The position numbers were made by a program, and so were the translations under genes. From a virus, in IMG/VR virus record IMGVR_UViG_3300050014_000169, positions 1 through 43,291 of that record: 43,291 bases of DNA; one strand, written 5' to 3'. Each line of letters starts with the position of its first letter. The first letter of the stretch is position 1. The notes beneath the pieces were generated by a model. The model did not search any database, had not been told where the DNA came from, and worked only from the letters and a program-made list of their open reading frames with translations. Positions 7,825-39,286 of the stretch are shown here, piece by piece.

Positions 7825-8760
7825 ATGGCATTACTCGACGACATTCTCGCAACGGCAAAGAAAAATCCATATGGCACGAACACAGGCGACACTTCCATTG
7901 ACGCGCTCGGAAATCAAGCAAATTCTTCCCTTGCTACTGCACTTAATCAACTGTATCAAACAAACAATTCCGGACTAAACGACCTGAACAATCAAATGGC
8001 ACCTATTCAGCAGAATTTAGCCGCAGTACCCGCGAAGTATCAGCCTCAGTACGACCAAAACGCCGTGACCGAGCAGTCTAATTTAAAGCGGGCTTTAGAG
8101 AATGCGGCTAATTACGGTCAACTCGGCGGTGGCGCATATCAGCAGTGGCAACTTGACGCATCCGGCAACAGGCAGAACGCCGACACTGCTGTAAACGCTA
8201 ATAAGGCGAGTGACCTGACGAATTACGGAAATCAGATTAACGATTTGACCGGGAAAATAAACACGTTTAACAGTAACGGGCAGAATGATTTAGCCTCACT
8301 TTTAAGCAAATCATCCAGCGATTATAACGGTGCGGTAAATGTGCAAAAGAACAATGAGGCGGCGGCGGCACAGGCAGAGTATGACAAGCAGATGGCTTTG
8401 CAGAACGCTTATAACATTGCGCAGATAAATCATAGCGGTTCAGGCACAACCGTCAAAGCTCCAGCAACACCCACGGTTTCAGACTTTATGAAAAACTTCG
8501 CGGGGAATTATACCAATGTAACCAAAGGGATTGACCCACAGACAGGTTATGCCACAGGGACGACTACAAGCACTATTTCCGACCCCGACGCTCTGATAAA
8601 CGCTATTACCAGTTCAGGGTTAAGCCAACAAGACCAAATTAATTTAGTCGCTCAATATCCTTACAAATACAACGGTATTACCCTTGCACAATACATTGCA
8701 AGCCCGAACAGAACTTATATTTCTCCAAGCGGAAACAGTTATCAAACTACTGGTTATTAA
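7825..8760 (+). CDS. Internal / ejection-type virion protein
   Basis: A 311-residue Asn/Gln/Ala-rich protein. Residues about 35-200 are predicted helical coiled coil, with many Gln and Asn (LATALNQLYQTNNSGLNDL, KQMALQNAYNIAQINH), and the C-terminal 100 residues are more globular. Strong ribosome site AAAGGAGGTTTAAATT. Long helical, glutamine-rich proteins next to a very large protein are typical of internal core / ejection proteins of short-tailed phages, which pass through the tail to build a channel. The assignment is by position and composition. Confidence 0.45.
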   Translation: MALLDDILATAKKNPYGTNTGDTSIDALGNQANSSLATALNQLYQTNNSGLNDLNNQMAPIQQNLAAVPAKYQPQYDQNAVTEQSNLKRALENAANYGQLGGGAYQQWQLDASGNRQNADTAVNANKASDLTNYGNQINDLTGKINTFNSNGQNDLASLLSKSSSDYNGAVNVQKNNEAAAAQAEYDKQMALQNAYNIAQINHSGSGTTVKAPATPTVSDFMKNFAGNYTNVTKGIDPQTGYATGTTTSTISDPDALINAITSSGLSQQDQINLVAQYPYKYNGITLAQYIASPNRTYISPSGNSYQTTGY

Positions 8761-8777
8761 ATTAAGGGGGTGCCAAT

Positions 8778-11700
8778 ATGCCAATACCTGATTATTTAAA
8801 GGCAGCATTCGCAGGTAAAAGTAAAATACCTGATTATTTGGCATCGGCTTTTCCCAATAAACCTGTACCCGTTGTTGCCCCCCCTGCACAAACTATTACT
8901 CGTTCTGCCACAACCAATTCAAATCTTCCTAACTTCCCCGCGCTTAACGCCGCTTCACATCCAACTTATAAGCAAATTATGAGTACGCCTGCGCCGAAAC
9001 TTACTGCGCAGCAACAACATGACGCAGATGCGCAAGCCGCCGGGCCAATGACACACAATCCCCTTGAACAGTGGCGAGTAATGCTTTTTGGGACACCAGC
9101 TGAAAAGAAAAAATTTAAATTACAACTCGATTATGTCACTCCTCCTAAACCCGCTTCCGCACCAGCAGCTGCTGTGCTTGGTGCACTAAATGATTTGGGT
9201 GCTGGCAATCTCACTACGGCCATGACAGGTGACGACAGACTTCAAAGGTATTTTGAAGCAGCTCAACAGCAACACCCCGTTGCTTATGGGGCTGGCAGTA
9301 TTGCGGGATATATTGCGCCTGGCTCTCTTGTTGATAAAGGTGTGAGCATGGCCGCAAGACCTTTACTTGAAAAAGTGGGTACAACCATTGCGGGTAAAAT
9401 TGCCTCTCGTGCCGCTACAGCCGCAGTTTCAAACGCCGCGCTTTTCGGTGCAAGCGATAAACTGCAAGGCGTATCAAATAGCCAAACCTTAAAAGATATG
9501 GCTCTACAAGGGCTTGTGGGTGGTGCTCTTGGCGGCGGTATGAGTGCTATAGGCGCACGCTCAGCTATAAAAACAGCAACAAGGGAATTAGGGGCAAAGG
9601 GGCTTGTTACGCCTGCTTCTAAAATTCCGTCAAACATTGCGAAAGCCGCAGAAGATAGAGCCGTGGCAAATGCCACCAAGACATTCGGGATAGGCAAGGA
9701 ACCTGCATTAACGCCCACAGCCGCTAAACTTTCACCGGTGGTGAATGATGTGGTTAAGGCAAATACGGCACTCACAAAGGCACAGGTGGGCGCAGGGAAC
9801 GTGTTGAAGCCCATAAATACTATTGACAAAATAGTTTCGGGCAAACCTACTTTATTGCAAAATATGAAAACTACCCTTACCCCAACAGCAGGCAGACCTA
9901 AAGCAATTTTGAGTGATTTGTACCAGCGTTTTGTCAATGTTCAAAATCCAACAAAAGCATTTTCAAAAGCGGCAGGGGCTAAAGTTGCGTCTGAAAACCC
10001 CTACATTCTTTCAATGAACGCATCAAATTCAGGCGGTGTATCTAATTTTATTCTCAATGAGGGGTTGGCCGATAAAAGCGGTAATATCATAGGCAAAAGT
10101 TTTAAAGATGTTACAGCCGAAATCCCCAAGACACAGCAGAACGCATTCGAGGACTATTTACTGAATAAACACAATATTTCACGTACCGCAGAGGGCAAAC
10201 CTGTATTTACCACGGATATAAACGGCAATAAAGTTGATTCCACTGTTTCAAAGCAGGTGGTCGCCGCTTACGAAAAAGACCATCCTAACTTTAAAACTGC
10301 AAGTGAAAATCTTCAAAAGTGGTGGGGATCATTTATTGACGAATGGGGTGTCAATTCAGGACTTATTTCAGAAGATACAGCAAAGGTTATGAGAAAAACA
10401 TACCCAGATTATGTGCCGACATACAGAGACTTTGCAGATATTGAACGCACGAGCGGAGTTAAGGGGGCAAAATCAGAGTTTGTAAATCAATCCAACACTC
10501 TTAAGAAAGCAACAGGCAGTGACCGCAATGTGATAAGCCCTATGCAGTCATTTACTCAACTCGTTCAGAAAATGGTCAAGGCCTCAAAATATAATGAAGT
10601 CGGTCAAGCAATCGTTAAAGCAATTAAAAAAAGTCCTGATGAATTACGTGCTTTTGCTGAAATTGTACCCGAAAAAGACTCTTTCAATCTCGGAAATAAT
10701 CTTGAAAATGGCATCGATGAACTTTCAGTACAATGGAAAAATGCAACATCTGATTTATCAAAGAATAATATTGTGCGTGTCATGGTAGGCGGTGAACCTG
10801 TTCACATTCAGATTAACGATAAGTCGTTTTTGAGGGCGTTGACAGGCGCAGATCAGCAACCTTCCGCTAATCTCGCCGCAAAAGTGCTAAGAAAAGGTAC
10901 CGGCACTTATAAGGCACTTATCACAGGAGATAACCCTTTGTTTGCACTAACGAATATTGCCCGTGACGTTCCGACCTATCTAATAAATGGCACTGAAAAT
11001 AACCCTATCAAAGCACTCGGCACTCTTGGAAAAGCTGCCAAAGGCGTACTGACAAACTCAAAAGAATTTCAGGAATATAAGGCTCTTGGCGGTGGCGGTG
11101 GCGGTTTCTTTAAACAGGATTACGCCAGCCTCGGTAAAAAAGGCGGATTAATATCAAAAGTCGAAAAGTTTAATAACGCAACAGAACAAACCCCTCGTTT
11201 TGCCGAATATTTATCAACTAAAAATAAACTCGGCAATACTTACGATGCAAAGGTGCAAGGGCTTTACAATGCAAACGACGTTACAACAAACTTTGCACGA
11301 CACGGCGATGTAACAAAGTCAGTCGATATGGGAGTACCTTATCTCAACCCAGGGGTACAAGGCCTTGATAAAATTATAAGGCAAGTGGTTACCCACCCAG
11401 TAGGCACTCTTGTAAAGGGCGTTGTCGCTGTCACACTGCCCACGGTGGCACTTGACGCTATCAACTGGAACAACCCAAATTATCAGGCGCTCGATAACCG
11501 CACAAAAGATAATTACTTTCTTATTCCGAATGGACTTGATAAAGATGCAAATGGGCAAGCAAAGACATTTATTAAAATTCCTAAGTCACGTGAGTTTGGT
11601 GTGCTTTTTGGTTCTTTGGCAGAACGAATTACACGTCAAGTAATGGGACAGCCCAATTCATTTAAGGGTTTTGGAAGTTCGGCAATGTCAAATATCGCGC

Positions 11701-15413: not shown

Positions 15414-16463
15414 TCAATCGTCGTGTTGCATTTCATGTTGCATGATTTTTTCAAAACGGCTGTCTATAGCCTCATTTATTGACTGCCTTTTATTTATAGT
15501 TGTGTGCTCATATCGTTTTTTATATATATCGCTGCCCCACCCTCCGCGCTCCGCAATGTATTTATCGGGGACGTTTTCTTCAAGCATTATCGTTGCGTTT
15601 GTGTGGCGCAGATCGTGAAAACGAAACGGCCCTACTCCTGCCCTACTGCAAATCCGCACAAACCTCTTATATATTGCTTGCCCCGACAGACTTGTTATAT
15701 ATTTTCTATCATCTGTAATCAATACGTCCATTCTCTGTTGAATATATGCTGGGAATGATATAGCACGTGTTCCTTTCTTTGATTTTGTGCCTTTTTCAAC
15801 GGCTCCATCGTCACCCTGAACGATAGCTTTTTCAACAACTACTTTACCGTTACCCATTTTAGAACATTTGAGCCCTCTGATTTCTGACACGCGCAAACCA
15901 AGCCAAGAGGCAAGGAGTATCGGCAGTTCCATTTCGGTACCGTAAGCCAAAACATATATCTTTCGCAAATCATCATCGAGCGGCACATCTTTAATCGTGG
16001 GATAAACGGTTGGCAAGTCTATTCTATATTTAAAATCAGGCCGGTATTTTTTGAGGACTGTGTTCAATAGGCCGAAAGCGTTGTATACAGTTTTGGGGGA
16101 ATACTTCCCTGCCTCATTATTAACTTCGTTTTTTATAATTTTTTCTGTTAATTTTACAAGTTTTACGGTTAAAATTACTTTTAAATGGCTCTTTTGTATT
16201 CTGTGATATCCGGCAATCGTAGCAGGAGACAATATATTGCTTAACGAGGCTATATGCGCGTCTATGGCTTCGCTGACGGTCATGTTGGCACCGTCTGATG
16301 TAATTGCCTTGTAATGTTCCTGCCACTCCATAGCGGCAAGGTTAGCCTTGCGCTCGGTGGATTCCGTAAAGGATTTATATTGACGTTTGCCACTTGCGTC
16401 TTTACCGGCGTATACAAGAACACGCCAGTTCCCGTCTTTACTAAGCTTTTTAGCGTTTGCCAT
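15414..16463 (-). CDS. int: Tyrosine integrase
   Basis: A 349-residue site-specific recombinase. Residues 10-55 are an arm-binding beta domain (NWRVLVYAGKDASGKRQYKS), 60-150 the SAM-like core-binding domain, 160-340 the catalytic domain with R191 (LGLRVSEIRG), a beta-hairpin lysine (about K229), H283-x-x-R286 (HDLRHT), W309 in place of the second His, and nucleophile Y318 (KRYEHT). All catalytic positions are intact and normally spaced. The gene runs toward the attP core, and its last codons overlap one arm-site repeat (15422-15443). It belongs to the lysogeny group with the repressor upstream. Confidence 0.95.
   Translation of the reverse strand: MANAKKLSKDGNWRVLVYAGKDASGKRQYKSFTESTERKANLAAMEWQEHYKAITSDGANMTVSEAIDAHIASLSNILSPATIAGYHRIQKSHLKVILTVKLVKLTEKIIKNEVNNEAGKYSPKTVYNAFGLLNTVLKKYRPDFKYRIDLPTVYPTIKDVPLDDDLRKIYVLAYGTEMELPILLASWLGLRVSEIRGLKCSKMGNGKVVVEKAIVQGDDGAVEKGTKSKKGTRAISFPAYIQQRMDVLITDDRKYITSLSGQAIYKRFVRICSRAGVGPFRFHDLRHTNATIMLEENVPDKYIAERGGWGSDIYKKRYEHTTINKRQSINEAIDSRFEKIMQHEMQHDD
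15422..15443. promoter_or_regulatory. Integrase arm-type site, P' side
   Basis: Second copy of the 22-bp element beginning CGTGTTGCAT (first at 15205-15226; one mismatch). It lies inside the last codons of the integrase gene, where it encodes QHEMQH, so coding sequence and binding site are superimposed. Together with the first copy it brackets the 15350-15378 core. Confidence 0.45.
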
Positions 16464-17103: not shown

Positions 17104-17472
17104 TCAATATGCCAGTTCTCCCCCCGCCGCCGCGATTGTGTTTTTTAAGGCTTTATACCTTGCAAACATTAACAACTCTTCTTTATCTTCGTTATTACAT
17201 ACTTTATAACATCCGATTAATTCTTCTAAATCAGTTTCGAGAGATAACTCTTGGGGCTGATTTTTTGTGTCTAAACCGTTATCTTCAATAATATTGCTTT
17301 TTTTAATTCCGAAATGATCGGCAATTTTTTGAATAACTCCCATTCTGGGTTCTTTGGTTTCGGTTTCCCATGCCGAGACGGCCTTATCGGTTACTCCAGC
17401 TATTTTAGCAAGTTCTACTTGAGTGAGGTTGTGCATCTCTCTCAGTTTTTTAATATTCATACCAATTGACAT
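17104..17472 (-). CDS. CI-like lysogeny repressor (XRE family)
   Basis: A 122-residue protein. Residues 5-60 form an XRE/HTH_3 DNA-binding domain (IKKLREMHNLTQVELAKIAG ... AVSAWETETKEP). There is no peptidase domain, so it is not a RecA-cleaved LexA/CI type; the C-terminal half (about 80-120, LEELIGCYKVCNNEDKEELL) is helical and likely dimerises. Start ATG at 17472 follows AGGAGCTGTTTAAA; a second in-frame ATG lies four codons on. It is divergent from the Cro-like gene, with palindromic operators in both promoters, so it should repress the lytic promoter and control its own. Confidence 0.85.
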   Translation of the reverse strand: MSIGMNIKKLREMHNLTQVELAKIAGVTDKAVSAWETETKEPRMGVIQKIADHFGIKKSNIIEDNGLDTKNQPQELSLETDLEELIGCYKVCNNEDKEELLMFARYKALKNTIAAAGGELAY

Positions 17473-34786: not shown

Positions 34787-34896
34787 CCCTTCTTGTTGCA
34801 CAAAATGCGCACTGACTACATAGGCTCAAACCGCATGAGTACAGGGTTTGTAACAATATTATGTTAATAATTCAGGCACTTCTGACAAAATTGATG

Positions 34897-34925
34897 TTGC
34901 GTGTAACGCTAATGTACGATACAAT
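34897..34925 (+). promoter_or_regulatory. Promoter of the RepL-like / packaging region
   Basis: TTGCGT (34897-34902), a 17-bp spacer and TACAAT (34920-34925), about 44 bases before the GTG start at 34969. The 220-bp gap from the previous terminator holds no other gene. Probably the start of the transcript through terminase and portal genes. Confidence 0.55.
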
Positions 34926-34968
34926 AAGTATATAGATAATCAACAGAGAGTTATATTGGGGTGATTAT

Positions 34969-36122: not shown

Positions 36123-36493
36123 CCTGTCTATGTACGGCGGATTTAAGCCCTCAAAACACAGCAAAATTCTTGCAAGTGCCACAGATGGCGTAGGTAGGCC
36201 AATGTGTACCGGTCAAAAGATGTATTTTGTATAATAGACTGATATAGTATACAATAGAGACTTGCATATTACATACCATCCATGTACTCAATGCAATACA
36301 AAAGCACACACTACTACTGGCAATGATAGACACCATGTCCTACACTCATGGAGGCGCACACTCATACATACGCAGACCAGTGCAGACGGATGACGGTGGG
36401 CAGGGGAGGGGGTAGGGCTCCCGGGGGCGAGGCAATCAAATAAGTAGTACCTACACTCGACAATATTTTTACAAATCTGAGAAAGGCGATTGA
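36123..36493 (+). other. 370-bp non-coding gap with G-quadruplex motif
   Basis: No gene is credible here. It has: an inverted repeat TTGTATA (36227-36233) / TATACAA (36248-36254) with TATAAT-like boxes inside, a possible promoter; then a G-run GGG-CA-GGGG-A-GGGGG-TA-GGG at 36398-36417, a canonical quadruplex pattern on the plus strand; and a C/G-rich CTCCCGGGGGCGAGG after it. The surroundings are AT-rich and repeat words like CACACTCATACATAC. Lying directly after the small terminase gene it is a candidate packaging or regulatory element. Confidence 0.45.
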
Positions 36494-36784
36494 ATGAACA
36501 TACCCGATAAAGTAAAAATAGGTGGTCTGATATATGATGTGTCAATAGAAAAAGGCGTATGCCATGGATTAAATAAAGCATATGGGACTTGCGATTATGA
36601 AGCCCTTGAAATATCTATTGAGAAAGACTATTCAGAACAGAAGATTAAGCAAACATTTTGGCATGAGGTAATGCATGCGATTGACAATGAATATCATGCA
36701 GGATTAAGCGAGAAGCAGATAGATCAAATGGCTTGTGGACTTTATTCAGTTATCGTTGACAACCCCGACATATTCAAGGAGTAG
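36494..36784 (+). CDS. Zincin-like metallopeptidase protein, 96 aa
   Basis: A 96-residue protein with HEVMHAID (H57-E58-x2-H61), a zinc-peptidase core motif, following a beta front half (VKIGGLIYDVSIEKGVCHGL, YEALEISIEKD). The tail MACGLYSVIVDNPDIFKE resembles ends of small phage metallopeptidase-like proteins. It is too short for a full ImmA/IrrE protease but keeps the HExxH helix. Ribosome site GAAAGGCGATTGA. Lies between the two terminase genes. Confidence 0.65.
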   Translation: MNIPDKVKIGGLIYDVSIEKGVCHGLNKAYGTCDYEALEISIEKDYSEQKIKQTFWHEVMHAIDNEYHAGLSEKQIDQMACGLYSVIVDNPDIFKE

Positions 36785-36993: not shown

Positions 36994-37098
36994 ATGAAAA
37001 TTAGAAGAATGTTATATCAGGACAATAATGGGAAATGGAAACATCACGTATGGATATTGTTTAAACACTCGATTTGGGCAATAGGACTTCATAAGTAA
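36994..37098 (+). CDS. Basic mini-protein, 34 aa
   Basis: A 34-residue protein (MKIRRMLYQDNNGKWKHHVW...) rich in Trp, His, Lys and Arg, behind a perfect AAGGAGGAAAG. The excellent ribosome site argues it is made. It ends immediately before the structured non-coding region 37099-37434. Confidence 0.5.
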   Translation: MKIRRMLYQDNNGKWKHHVWILFKHSIWAIGLHK

Positions 37099-37434
37099 AT
37101 ACGCATGTGGTGGCGAATAAAACGCGGTTAAGACAATAATCTGCTCCCGAACGGTGGGTAATTGCCGAAAGGTTAAACCATGCAGGAGTATTGCAGTTTG
37201 TGAAACTCATCTGCCCACATGCTTATTTTATAAATTGCCGTTGAAATCATTGCTGCGTGAGAAAGTGATGATTGAGGCATTCGAGGGGTTTTGTGTTGTC
37301 CCTTTCTCAATAAGGGAAACCTGAAAACAAAACACATCAATATTAAGTGGCCTGTCTCCGAATACGAGACCTCCACAATCAAACCGCTATATGCGGTAAG
37401 TGGGGTATGGCTTAGGCTGTATCCCTTTTTATTT
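37099..37434 (+). ncRNA. Candidate structured RNA upstream of tRNA-Asn
   Basis: No gene fits in this 336-bp stretch, but many paired words occur: a long-range 8-bp stem GCATGTGG (37103-37110) / CCACATGC (37215-37222); AATCAT (37245-37250) / ATGATT (37268-37273); TCCCTT (37299-37304) / AAGGGA (37312-37317); alternative pairing TGAGAAAG (37258-37265) / CTTTCTCA (37302-37309); and a three-way junction with GCCT (37350-37353) / AGGC (37414-37417) holding the hairpin GTCTC / GAGAC (37354-37370) and the stem CTCCAC / GTGGGG with inner ACCGC / GCGGT (37371-37405). It runs into tRNA-Asn. Large ornate RNAs beside tRNAs (such as GOLLD or ROOL) are known in phages; this one is not identified. Confidence 0.4.
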
Positions 37435-37509
37435 TGAGAAGTAGCGCAACGGTAGAGCTCCAGATTGTTACTCTGGGGGTTATAGGTTCAAGTCCTATCT
37501 TCTCAGCCA
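37435..37509 (+). tRNA. tRNA-Asn (anticodon GTT)
   Basis: A complete cloverleaf: acceptor TGAGAAG / CTTCTCA, D arm GCGC...GAGC with one G-A mismatch, anticodon stem CCAGA / TCTGG with loop TTGTTAC (anticodon GTT), T arm ATAGG-TTCAAGT-CCTAT, discriminator G and an encoded CCA. It lies on the plus strand between small and large terminase genes and is not the attB-type fragment found beside the integrase. Phage tRNAs often correct codon supply; it could also be a processing landmark in a longer RNA. Confidence 0.92.
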
Positions 37510-37652
37510 GCTATCGGTTTCCGGTGACAGTTTAGTTATGAACCGGTGCGATCTCTCTATCCGATCTCAAAAGGATAAAAAGAAGAGGGCAAGTTCGCCG
37601 AAGTTCTCTCGCCATAGCGAAAAATCGGCAACCCTTAGGGGTAAGGAGAAAT
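37510..37652 (+). ncRNA. Structured leader between tRNA-Asn and terL
   Basis: A 143-base stretch with no gene but four successive hairpins: ATCG/CGAT (37513-37552) with inner CCGGT/ACCGG; ATCC/GGAT (37559-37576) flanked by CTCT/AGAG; GCCGA/TCGGC (37597-37629) with inner TCGC-CATA-GCGA (37609-37620); and CCTTA-GGGG-TAAGG (37633-37646). The last one takes up part of the ribosome site AAGGAG of the following 15-codon ORF. It may be part of the same RNA as 37099-37434, or a separate translational control leader for the terminase gene. Confidence 0.4.
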
Positions 37653-37700
37653 ATGAAACGTAAACACTGGAGATTGAATTATCAATTAAGACTTGCATAA
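37653..37700 (+). CDS. Leader peptide before terL, 15 aa
   Basis: A 15-codon frame, MKRKHWRLNYQLRLA, with a good ribosome site (TAAGGAGAAAT) and its stop overlapping an ATG at 37700. The ribosome site is partly sequestered in the hairpin 37633-37646. Basic and aromatic; could act as a leader coupling translation of the terminase gene. Very short, so conservation is the only proof. Confidence 0.35.
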   Translation: MKRKHWRLNYQLRLA

Positions 37701-37711
37701 TGGAGGCCAAT

Positions 37712-39286
37712 ATGCCGGAAACTATGACCCGTGAAGATGCAATATTAAGGCTCAATGAAGCAAATCGACGCAAAGCAAAAAACGATTGTGCGTTCTTCAT
37801 AGATACATTTGTACACGTCGAGGACAAGGATGCAGTCGATACAGTCACCCCGTTCCACCTCTGGGAGGGACAAAAGAAAGCACTTGATACTTTTCTGAAC
37901 AGTCGGCTTTCAATTGTTCTAAAGGCGCGCCAGCTCGGTCTTACATGGCTTGTGCTGGCACTGGCGGTTTGGAACATGATATATAAGAGCGGGTATACAA
38001 TACTTGCCCTGTCTAAAAAAGAAGACCCCGACGCGAAAGAATTAATCCGCCGCGTTTGTTTTATATTAAAGTATATGCCTAAGTGGTTTATCAAAAAGAA
38101 AGGCGAAGATGGGAACGCACTTTTAACATGGGACAATACCGCATTGCAGGTCACAGTTTTTCACACCGGAAGTGAGCCGTCAGTGTTTCAGAGTTTTGCA
38201 GCAGCCGAAGATAGTGGGCGTTCATTTACTGCAAACCTCGTTATACTTGATGAGTGGGCGTTTCAGCAATGGGCGCGTCAGATATGGACAGCTGCTTACC
38301 CTACTATCAACAGGACTACAGGCGGGCAACTCATAGGAATTTCCACAATGGAGCGCGGCACCTTATTTGAAGAGAAGTACAAAGAGGCAATGTCTGGTAT
38401 TAACGCATTCGCCCGGGTGTTCCTACCGTGGAATACAGATCCGCGCAGAGATATTACGTGGTACGAAAATACCAAGATTGAAATGAAAGGGCTCATGACC
38501 GCCGAATATCCCGCGACAGAGGAAGAGGCTCTATCAGTCCCTGGGGGTACATTCTTTTCAGAGTTCACCGAGAGCATACACGTCAAACCGCCCGAAGAGA
38601 TACCCGATTATGCGCAGCGATATGTCAGTGTGGATTATGGATTTGATAAACTTTCTGTTTTATGGTACTTGATAGATAAAAACGGTAACGCCCGAATTTA
38701 TAGAGAACTGGCAGAAAGTAATTTGATTGTTTCGGATGCAGCAAAAAAGGTACATGAATTGCAAACCAATTCAGAGGGAAAAGAGGAACACATAACCGCT
38801 TATCTCGCACCACCAGATTTAATACATTCTCGCCATAGAGAAACAGGGAAAACCACCGCAGACATATTTGCATTAGAGGGAATTTACCTCACCGAGACTT
38901 CTAACAACCGTAAAACAGGCTGGCTATGCGTAAGAGAACTACTTAAACCCCTTGAAGAAACAGACGAGCAGACAGGCGAAAAATCCCTTACTGCAAAACT
39001 CACAATAGACGAGGGCATTGCGCCCGATTTAAAATATTGTTTGCTTAACATTCAGCGCAGTAAAACCGTGTATAACGATGTCGACGGAAAAGGCAAACCC
39101 GCTCATGATCTCACGCATGGCCCAGACAGTTTGAGAGCCTTTGCAATCTATTGGATTACACCATCAGGTGAACCTACCGAAGAGCGGCGGGCAAAGTGGA
39201 CTGAGGACATGTATGAGGACTACTACAACTGCAAAAACGATGAAGATAGAAACTATCTATTAGGAATTTGGGGAAATCCATTTTGA
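37712..39286 (+). CDS. terL: Terminase large subunit
   Basis: A 524-residue packaging ATPase-nuclease, started at ATG 37712 (MPETMTREDA) because GGAGG lies five bases upstream; the ATG at 37700 lacks a ribosome site. Walker A-type KARQLGLTW (about 71-79), Walker B NLVILDEW, and then a nuclease domain with YVSVDYGFDKLSVLW and DSLRAFAIYW in the C-terminal third. It cuts concatemers and pumps DNA into the prohead through the portal. Partners: small terminase 1.5 kb upstream, portal 170 bases downstream. Motif order is intact. Confidence 0.9.
   Translation: MPETMTREDAILRLNEANRRKAKNDCAFFIDTFVHVEDKDAVDTVTPFHLWEGQKKALDTFLNSRLSIVLKARQLGLTWLVLALAVWNMIYKSGYTILALSKKEDPDAKELIRRVCFILKYMPKWFIKKKGEDGNALLTWDNTALQVTVFHTGSEPSVFQSFAAAEDSGRSFTANLVILDEWAFQQWARQIWTAAYPTINRTTGGQLIGISTMERGTLFEEKYKEAMSGINAFARVFLPWNTDPRRDITWYENTKIEMKGLMTAEYPATEEEALSVPGGTFFSEFTESIHVKPPEEIPDYAQRYVSVDYGFDKLSVLWYLIDKNGNARIYRELAESNLIVSDAAKKVHELQTNSEGKEEHITAYLAPPDLIHSRHRETGKTTADIFALEGIYLTETSNNRKTGWLCVRELLKPLEETDEQTGEKSLTAKLTIDEGIAPDLKYCLLNIQRSKTVYNDVDGKGKPAHDLTHGPDSLRAFAIYWITPSGEPTEERRAKWTEDMYEDYYNCKNDEDRNYLLGIWGNPF

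Follow-up and report, generated by a model that had tools for sequence, protein, structure and literature searches.

The stretch of about 550 bases at positions 37099-37652 of the viral record analysed here (43,291 nucleotides in its entirety, referred to as the window) consists of a row of separate structured RNA elements, A to E (Table 1), which are conserved in other phages, partly covary among homologues and have parts swapped between cassettes. We consider it probable, at roughly six chances in ten, that we are dealing with a modular cassette of independently folding RNAs that is subject to horizontal exchange, lies in the late operon of a temperate phage and places a drum sRNA beside a tRNA. 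The phage is temperate, with an integrase (15417-16463, minus strand) and a repressor (17107-17472, minus strand). When both strands were read, no convincing protein gene was found between the 34-aa and the 15-aa ORF that flank the stretch, in agreement with the initial annotation, which had described it as free of protein genes. That annotation had further proposed a structured non-coding RNA adjoining a phage tRNA in the late region and had set covariation among homologues beforehand as the check; homologues do exist, and compensatory changes were found. The local hairpins are present at the positions claimed and the tRNA-Asn is intact, while the drum RNA and the terminator had been overlooked. 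Folding of the whole stretch was better than that of 100 out of 100 dinucleotide shuffles (z -3.0), a signal stemming mainly from segment 37341-37434 (z -4.3; 5' part -1.9, drum part -2.0, post-tRNA part -1.5).

Table 1. Features of the RNA cassette and of its immediate surroundings in the window.
Feature	Position	Strand	Remarks
96-aa gene, phrog_1233, unknown function	36494-36784	+	precedes the cassette in the window, L126, L127 and L131
34-aa ORF	36994-37098	+	slot holds a different small gene in each relative
Element A, tRNA-like RNA, ends conserved, core variable	37097-37232	+	five homologues
Acceptor-like 8-bp stem of A	37103-37110 with 37215-37222	+	five phages; one G-U pair in L127
D-arm-like hairpin of A	37113-37125	+	GCG/CGC; GUG/CAC in L131
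T-arm-like hairpin of A	37193-37214	+	GCAG/CUGC, abutting the 3' strand of the acceptor-like stem
Element B, drum RNA (Rfam RF02958)	37236-37340	+	48.7 bits against a curated cut-off of 43
Drum pseudoknots	37258-37265 with 37302-37309; 37292-37297 with 37331-37336	+	strand comparison, 13 drums
Element C, three hairpins including a final intrinsic terminator	37345-37434	+	five phages; 3 compensatory pairs; model R1
Intrinsic terminator	37402-37435	+	10-bp stem, UUAG loop (37402-37425), then TTTTTATTTT
Element D, tRNA-Asn (GTT)	37435-37509	+	relatives carry Asn, Ile, Thr or no tRNA
Element E, leader before terL	37510-37652	+	stem 37597-37601/37625-37629; hairpin 37632-37634/37639-37641
15-aa ORF	37653-37700	+	Shine-Dalgarno-like AAGGAG; stop overlaps terL start (TAATG)
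terL, PHROG 2 type	37700-39286	+	

In an Rfam search of the whole window, two matches exceeded the curated cut-offs, the tRNA and a drum RNA, the latter covering the model in full length (1-112; E 3.1e-6). Both pseudoknots of the drum family, which were derived here from 13 drums with recognisable motifs (a set that includes three closely related or duplicate sequences), are kept in the window copy as UGAGAAAG/CUUUCUCA and UGUGUU/AACACA. Across the family, the pairing strands vary between sequences while their complementarity stays, and for the first pseudoknot the mean own-partner helix was 6.58, compared to a maximum of 5.96 in 200 partner swaps. Based on the score above the cut-off and the presence of both pseudoknots, the membership of element B in the drum family is therefore secure as judged from its sequence. 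A K-turn has been predicted for the family (PMC11974997), and at the level of sequence UGA/GAG strands occur at the corresponding places of the window drum. The drum was present in 2 of the 398 genomes sampled from one phylum, in 7 of 250 from a family and in 19 of 250 from a class. The roughly 1.5 kb around these genomic drums contained no called tRNA, and in the two copies that were read by eye (L073 and L074), terminator-like hairpins come directly after the drum. Like the chromosomal drums, the window drum has a terminator downstream, but it is a divergent copy, resides in a phage cassette adjoining a tRNA, and is separated from the terminator end by a 90-nt three-hairpin module. Drum DNA pattern scans of IMG/VR yielded two further viral drums on the contigs L076 and L077, the remaining matches being false. 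On L077, which has 11 tRNAs, the drum sits between tRNA-Trp and tRNA-Gln, the latter preceded by a hairpin and a T-run. The same array holds an uncalled tRNA-Leu-like RNA (8705-8816, minus strand); its variable arm is long, its anticodon-type loop measures 8 nt, and its cloverleaf differs from the free minimum-energy fold. The window resembles this array in the company that the drum keeps and differs from it in having a single tRNA, located at the packaging-gene locus.

Five cassettes were compared, those of the window, L126, L127 (L125 reversed), L131 and L140, all of which are metagenomic IMG/VR records. L127, L126 and L131 were reached via scans for the unusual D-arm of the tRNA-Asn and for the 96-aa neighbour, and L140 was added by a scan for the 5' end of A. 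The interval between A and C is occupied by the drum in the window, by a drum and a block termed X in L131, by a small ORF and X in L126, and by a 79-aa ORF in L127, a close relative of which is found in L140. C is followed by tRNA-Asn (window, L127), tRNA-Ile (L131), tRNA-Thr (L140) or no tRNA at all (L126), and E by terL in the window, L127 and L140 or by a small gene and then portal in L126 and L131. The TerL proteins beside the cassette fall into four PHROG types (best hits phrog_2, 979, 3717 and 38). Thus, exchange of a part depends neither on the other parts of the cassette nor on the terminase. The outer parts are conserved; C and E show compensatory changes, and A keeps its stems despite changes in sequence. 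Block X (L131:4843-5168 and L126:4938-5166) is conserved, non-coding and 93% identical between the two contigs, absent from the window, and folds no better than shuffled sequence (z about -1). Among the relatives of the window TerL, 62 viral and 7 genomic (best 52-59% identity), no drum was present in the records searched, and the viral loci among them had no alignable intergenic region. Apart from the tRNA, none of the RNA parts had a DNA match in isolate phages and plasmids, and neither A nor C elements were found in isolate phages. In some TerL relatives, tRNAs are located directly 5' of terL in the absence of a cassette (L016:1746-2214; L030 and L031:3605-3678; Gln and Cys; Ile).

Element C ends in a G+C-containing stem-loop followed by a T-run, and the stem of this terminator is kept in all five phages. 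The second hairpin of C carries three double compensatory pairs (GUCUC/GAGAC in the window versus GCUCC/GGAGC in the others), a score that was reached by 2 of 500 shuffles; the three pairs are neighbours and may represent one event. A model built from C scored the five phages at 77-119 bits, with nothing else comparable among 48 sources, the E-values of this home-made model being rough. Its weak matches in bacterial genomes (12 of 380, at 29-38 bits) looked like ordinary terminators in the three alignments inspected. The three-way junction that had been proposed at 37350-37417 does not stand up to this comparison. It competes with the terminator fold, the two being mutually exclusive, and is predicted at -24.4 kcal/mol compared to -32.9 for the latter; moreover, its closing stem is broken in 3 of 20 cells among the relatives without any compensation, while the five phages retain all scored pairs of the terminator fold. 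It might be speculated that both folds are used in alternation and that C is a cis-acting attenuator tuning the expression of the tRNA and terL to an unknown signal, since the two exclude each other, the junction would form first in growing transcripts according to folding computation, and a CCUCCAC/GUGGGG pairing is possible in all five phages. This pairing never varies, however, and is therefore uninformative, and such a role is improbable given the broken closing stem, the outright replacement of the third hairpin by an unrelated 11-bp hairpin in L140, and a downstream gene that is not the same across phages.

The internal terminator also bears on the proposal that the stretch forms one large RNA wrapped around the tRNA, which had been made in analogy to GOLLD and ROOL. 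GOLLD is a single large RNA, in many cases longer than 800 nt, whereas the present stretch measures 554 nt, is divided by a terminator and has its parts swapped. The Rfam models of GOLLD and ROOL gave no match, even at E values of up to 5, and parts are gained and lost independently, with the terminator separating the drum part from the tRNA. A single ornate RNA of this type that includes the tRNA is thus very improbable, even though the stretch adjoins a phage tRNA, its overall fold is better than that of shuffled sequence, and the GOLLD linker can carry tRNAs (PMC12286853). What the cassette has in common with GOLLD and ROOL is that these, too, are phage non-coding RNAs near tRNAs (PMC12286853); it differs by being composed of separate small RNAs. 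The related suggestion of an undescribed class fails for the drum, a known Rfam family, but may hold for element A and, to a lesser degree, module C. Element A may be undescribed in the sense that it is without counterpart in Rfam 15, ARAGORN or the literature searched.

The 8-bp stem pointed out in the initial annotation is the acceptor-like stem of A, and GCAUGUGG and CCACAUGC pair exactly as described. About 2.5 perfect 8-bp pairings are expected by chance at the size and composition of the stretch, so that the stem meant little by itself and relatives had to be compared; that it is real is shown by five phages in which it encloses different interiors. The ends of A are nearly invariant among the five homologues (AAATACGCAUGUGGUGG and CCCACAUGCUUAUUUUAUA), and the cores vary in sequence and length, with 36-94 nt from D arm to T arm. 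In all five, the acceptor stem, D-arm and T-arm are in place: a D-arm-like hairpin of 3-4 bp begins 1-2 nt after the acceptor-like stem, and a T-arm-like hairpin of 4-7 bp, directly abutting the 3' strand of that stem, is formed by GCAG/CUGC, GCAAG/CUUGC, GCAAGG/CCUUGC or GCAAUGG/CCAUUGC. Shuffled interiors yielded stems at least as long at frequencies of 8.8% (window), 0.8% (L126), 0.65% (L131) and 1.45% (L127); the stems were picked after inspection, and these percentages are therefore guides rather than strict probabilities. In intron mode, ARAGORN called the A element of L127 as a tRNA containing an insert of 26 nt, a result that did not recur in any of 300 shuffles. The other homologues were left uncalled, very loose settings returned hundreds of meaningless calls, and the Rfam tRNA model had no match to any A element. 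The D-arm of L131 shares 18 of 19 bases with that of a phage tRNA-Leu. Taken together, the stem geometry, the intron-mode call, the likeness of the D-arm and the non-match in Rfam identify element A as tRNA-like, and not as a tRNA by standard definitions; it is probably tRNA-derived. Class II tRNAs of the tRNA-Leu type are its closest match in the arms, including the D-arm of L131 and a canonical T-loop in L127, but A differs from these by its 8-bp acceptor-like stem, its long core, the lack of an encoded CCA and, in the window, of a recognisable anticodon arm, and by escaping ARAGORN and the Rfam tRNA model. In a constrained fold, the window core did not form a 5-bp arm with a 7-nt loop; in the L131 core, there is an arm of 7 bp whose 7-nt loop lacks U33. 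No covariation was demonstrated for the core among the five homologues.

These features allow two readings of A. It could be decaying tRNA debris, a set of pseudo-tRNAs with ends that are conserved as homology for recombination between phages. The wholesale replacement of the core between nearly invariant ends would fit such a history, as would the D- and T-loops, which range from canonical (L127) to degenerate (window, L140), and the upstream small genes, which in the window and its relatives are swapped and all end at the same AAGTAAATACGC joint. Decay is rather unlikely, however, in view of D- and T-stems that stay paired in all five homologues despite changed sequence, of four elements with folds that surpass those of shuffled sequence (z -2.3 to -3.0; L127 -0.9), and of a long identical core segment common to the window and L140. 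Alternatively, A might be the founding member of a new family of phage tRNA-like RNAs that are functional, lack an anticodon and combine a fixed acceptor/D/T shell with a core that can be exchanged. Such RNAs would be produced along with drum and tRNA from a swappable cassette and perhaps mislead or bind tRNA-directed host enzymes or defences, a doubtful idea that we put forward tentatively. Phage tRNAs have been proposed to counter tRNA-cutting defences of the host (PMC10264068), which is a lead for A and not evidence.

Downstream of the tRNA, the hairpins that had been noted are thermodynamically unremarkable as a group, and yet one hairpin and the final CCC/GGG hairpin are conserved. The stem of E has three pairs with double changes among relatives, and the invariant CCC/GGG hairpin is located 5' of the Shine-Dalgarno sequence. 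The overlap of the 15-aa ORF stop with the terL start possibly allows translational coupling. Since the cassettes of the window and L127 are located between terS and terL, the conserved sequences might be taken for a site of DNA packaging (cos/pac) instead of RNA genes; this is extremely improbable, as the changes are compensatory at the RNA level and the cassette accompanies four TerL types, lying 3' of terL in L126 and L131. Two other non-coding regions occur nearby. A conserved block before terS (window 34820-34960), with a promoter-like TTGCGT-N17-TACAAT in relatives, is a possible late-operon promoter, and a region after terS (window 36123-36490), conserved in L125 and L140, harbours TTTTGTATAATA and repeated CTTGCA motifs and is a possible promoter, operator or packaging-site region.

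For the cassette, the following course of expression might be hypothesized. Transcription reading through from upstream would yield the tRNA-like RNA A; within the cassette itself no promoter-like site was found, the sole one listed being at 37674-37701. The 3' end of the drum sRNA would be set by the terminator of C to give a drum+C RNA of about 200 nt, as we infer from the anatomy and from the chromosomal drums, which likewise end in a terminator. Partial read-through past the terminator would then feed the tRNA-Asn and the terL mRNA. The terminator lies directly 5' of tRNA-Asn and precedes terL, and therefore read-through or another promoter is needed, a point that counts against the cassette reading. 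A and the tRNA probably serve as processing punctuation for RNase P and RNase Z, which would free the drum RNA. On a more speculative note, the drum, as a stable RNA with pseudoknots, would most likely act in trans during infection, for instance on translation or the tRNA pool, and A might act on tRNA-directed enzymes.

The occurrence of drum in phages next to tRNAs, behind a terminator and once within a tRNA array, adds it to the tRNA-associated phage RNAs such as GOLLD and ROOL, and a temperate phage offers the means, induction and deletion, to test its role. The cassette itself documents the slot-by-slot exchange of RNA genes among phages at the packaging-gene locus and includes a recurrent tRNA-like element that is missed by tRNA finders. 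If element A is functional, similar uncalled RNAs, such as the one in L077, may be common in phage tRNA arrays.
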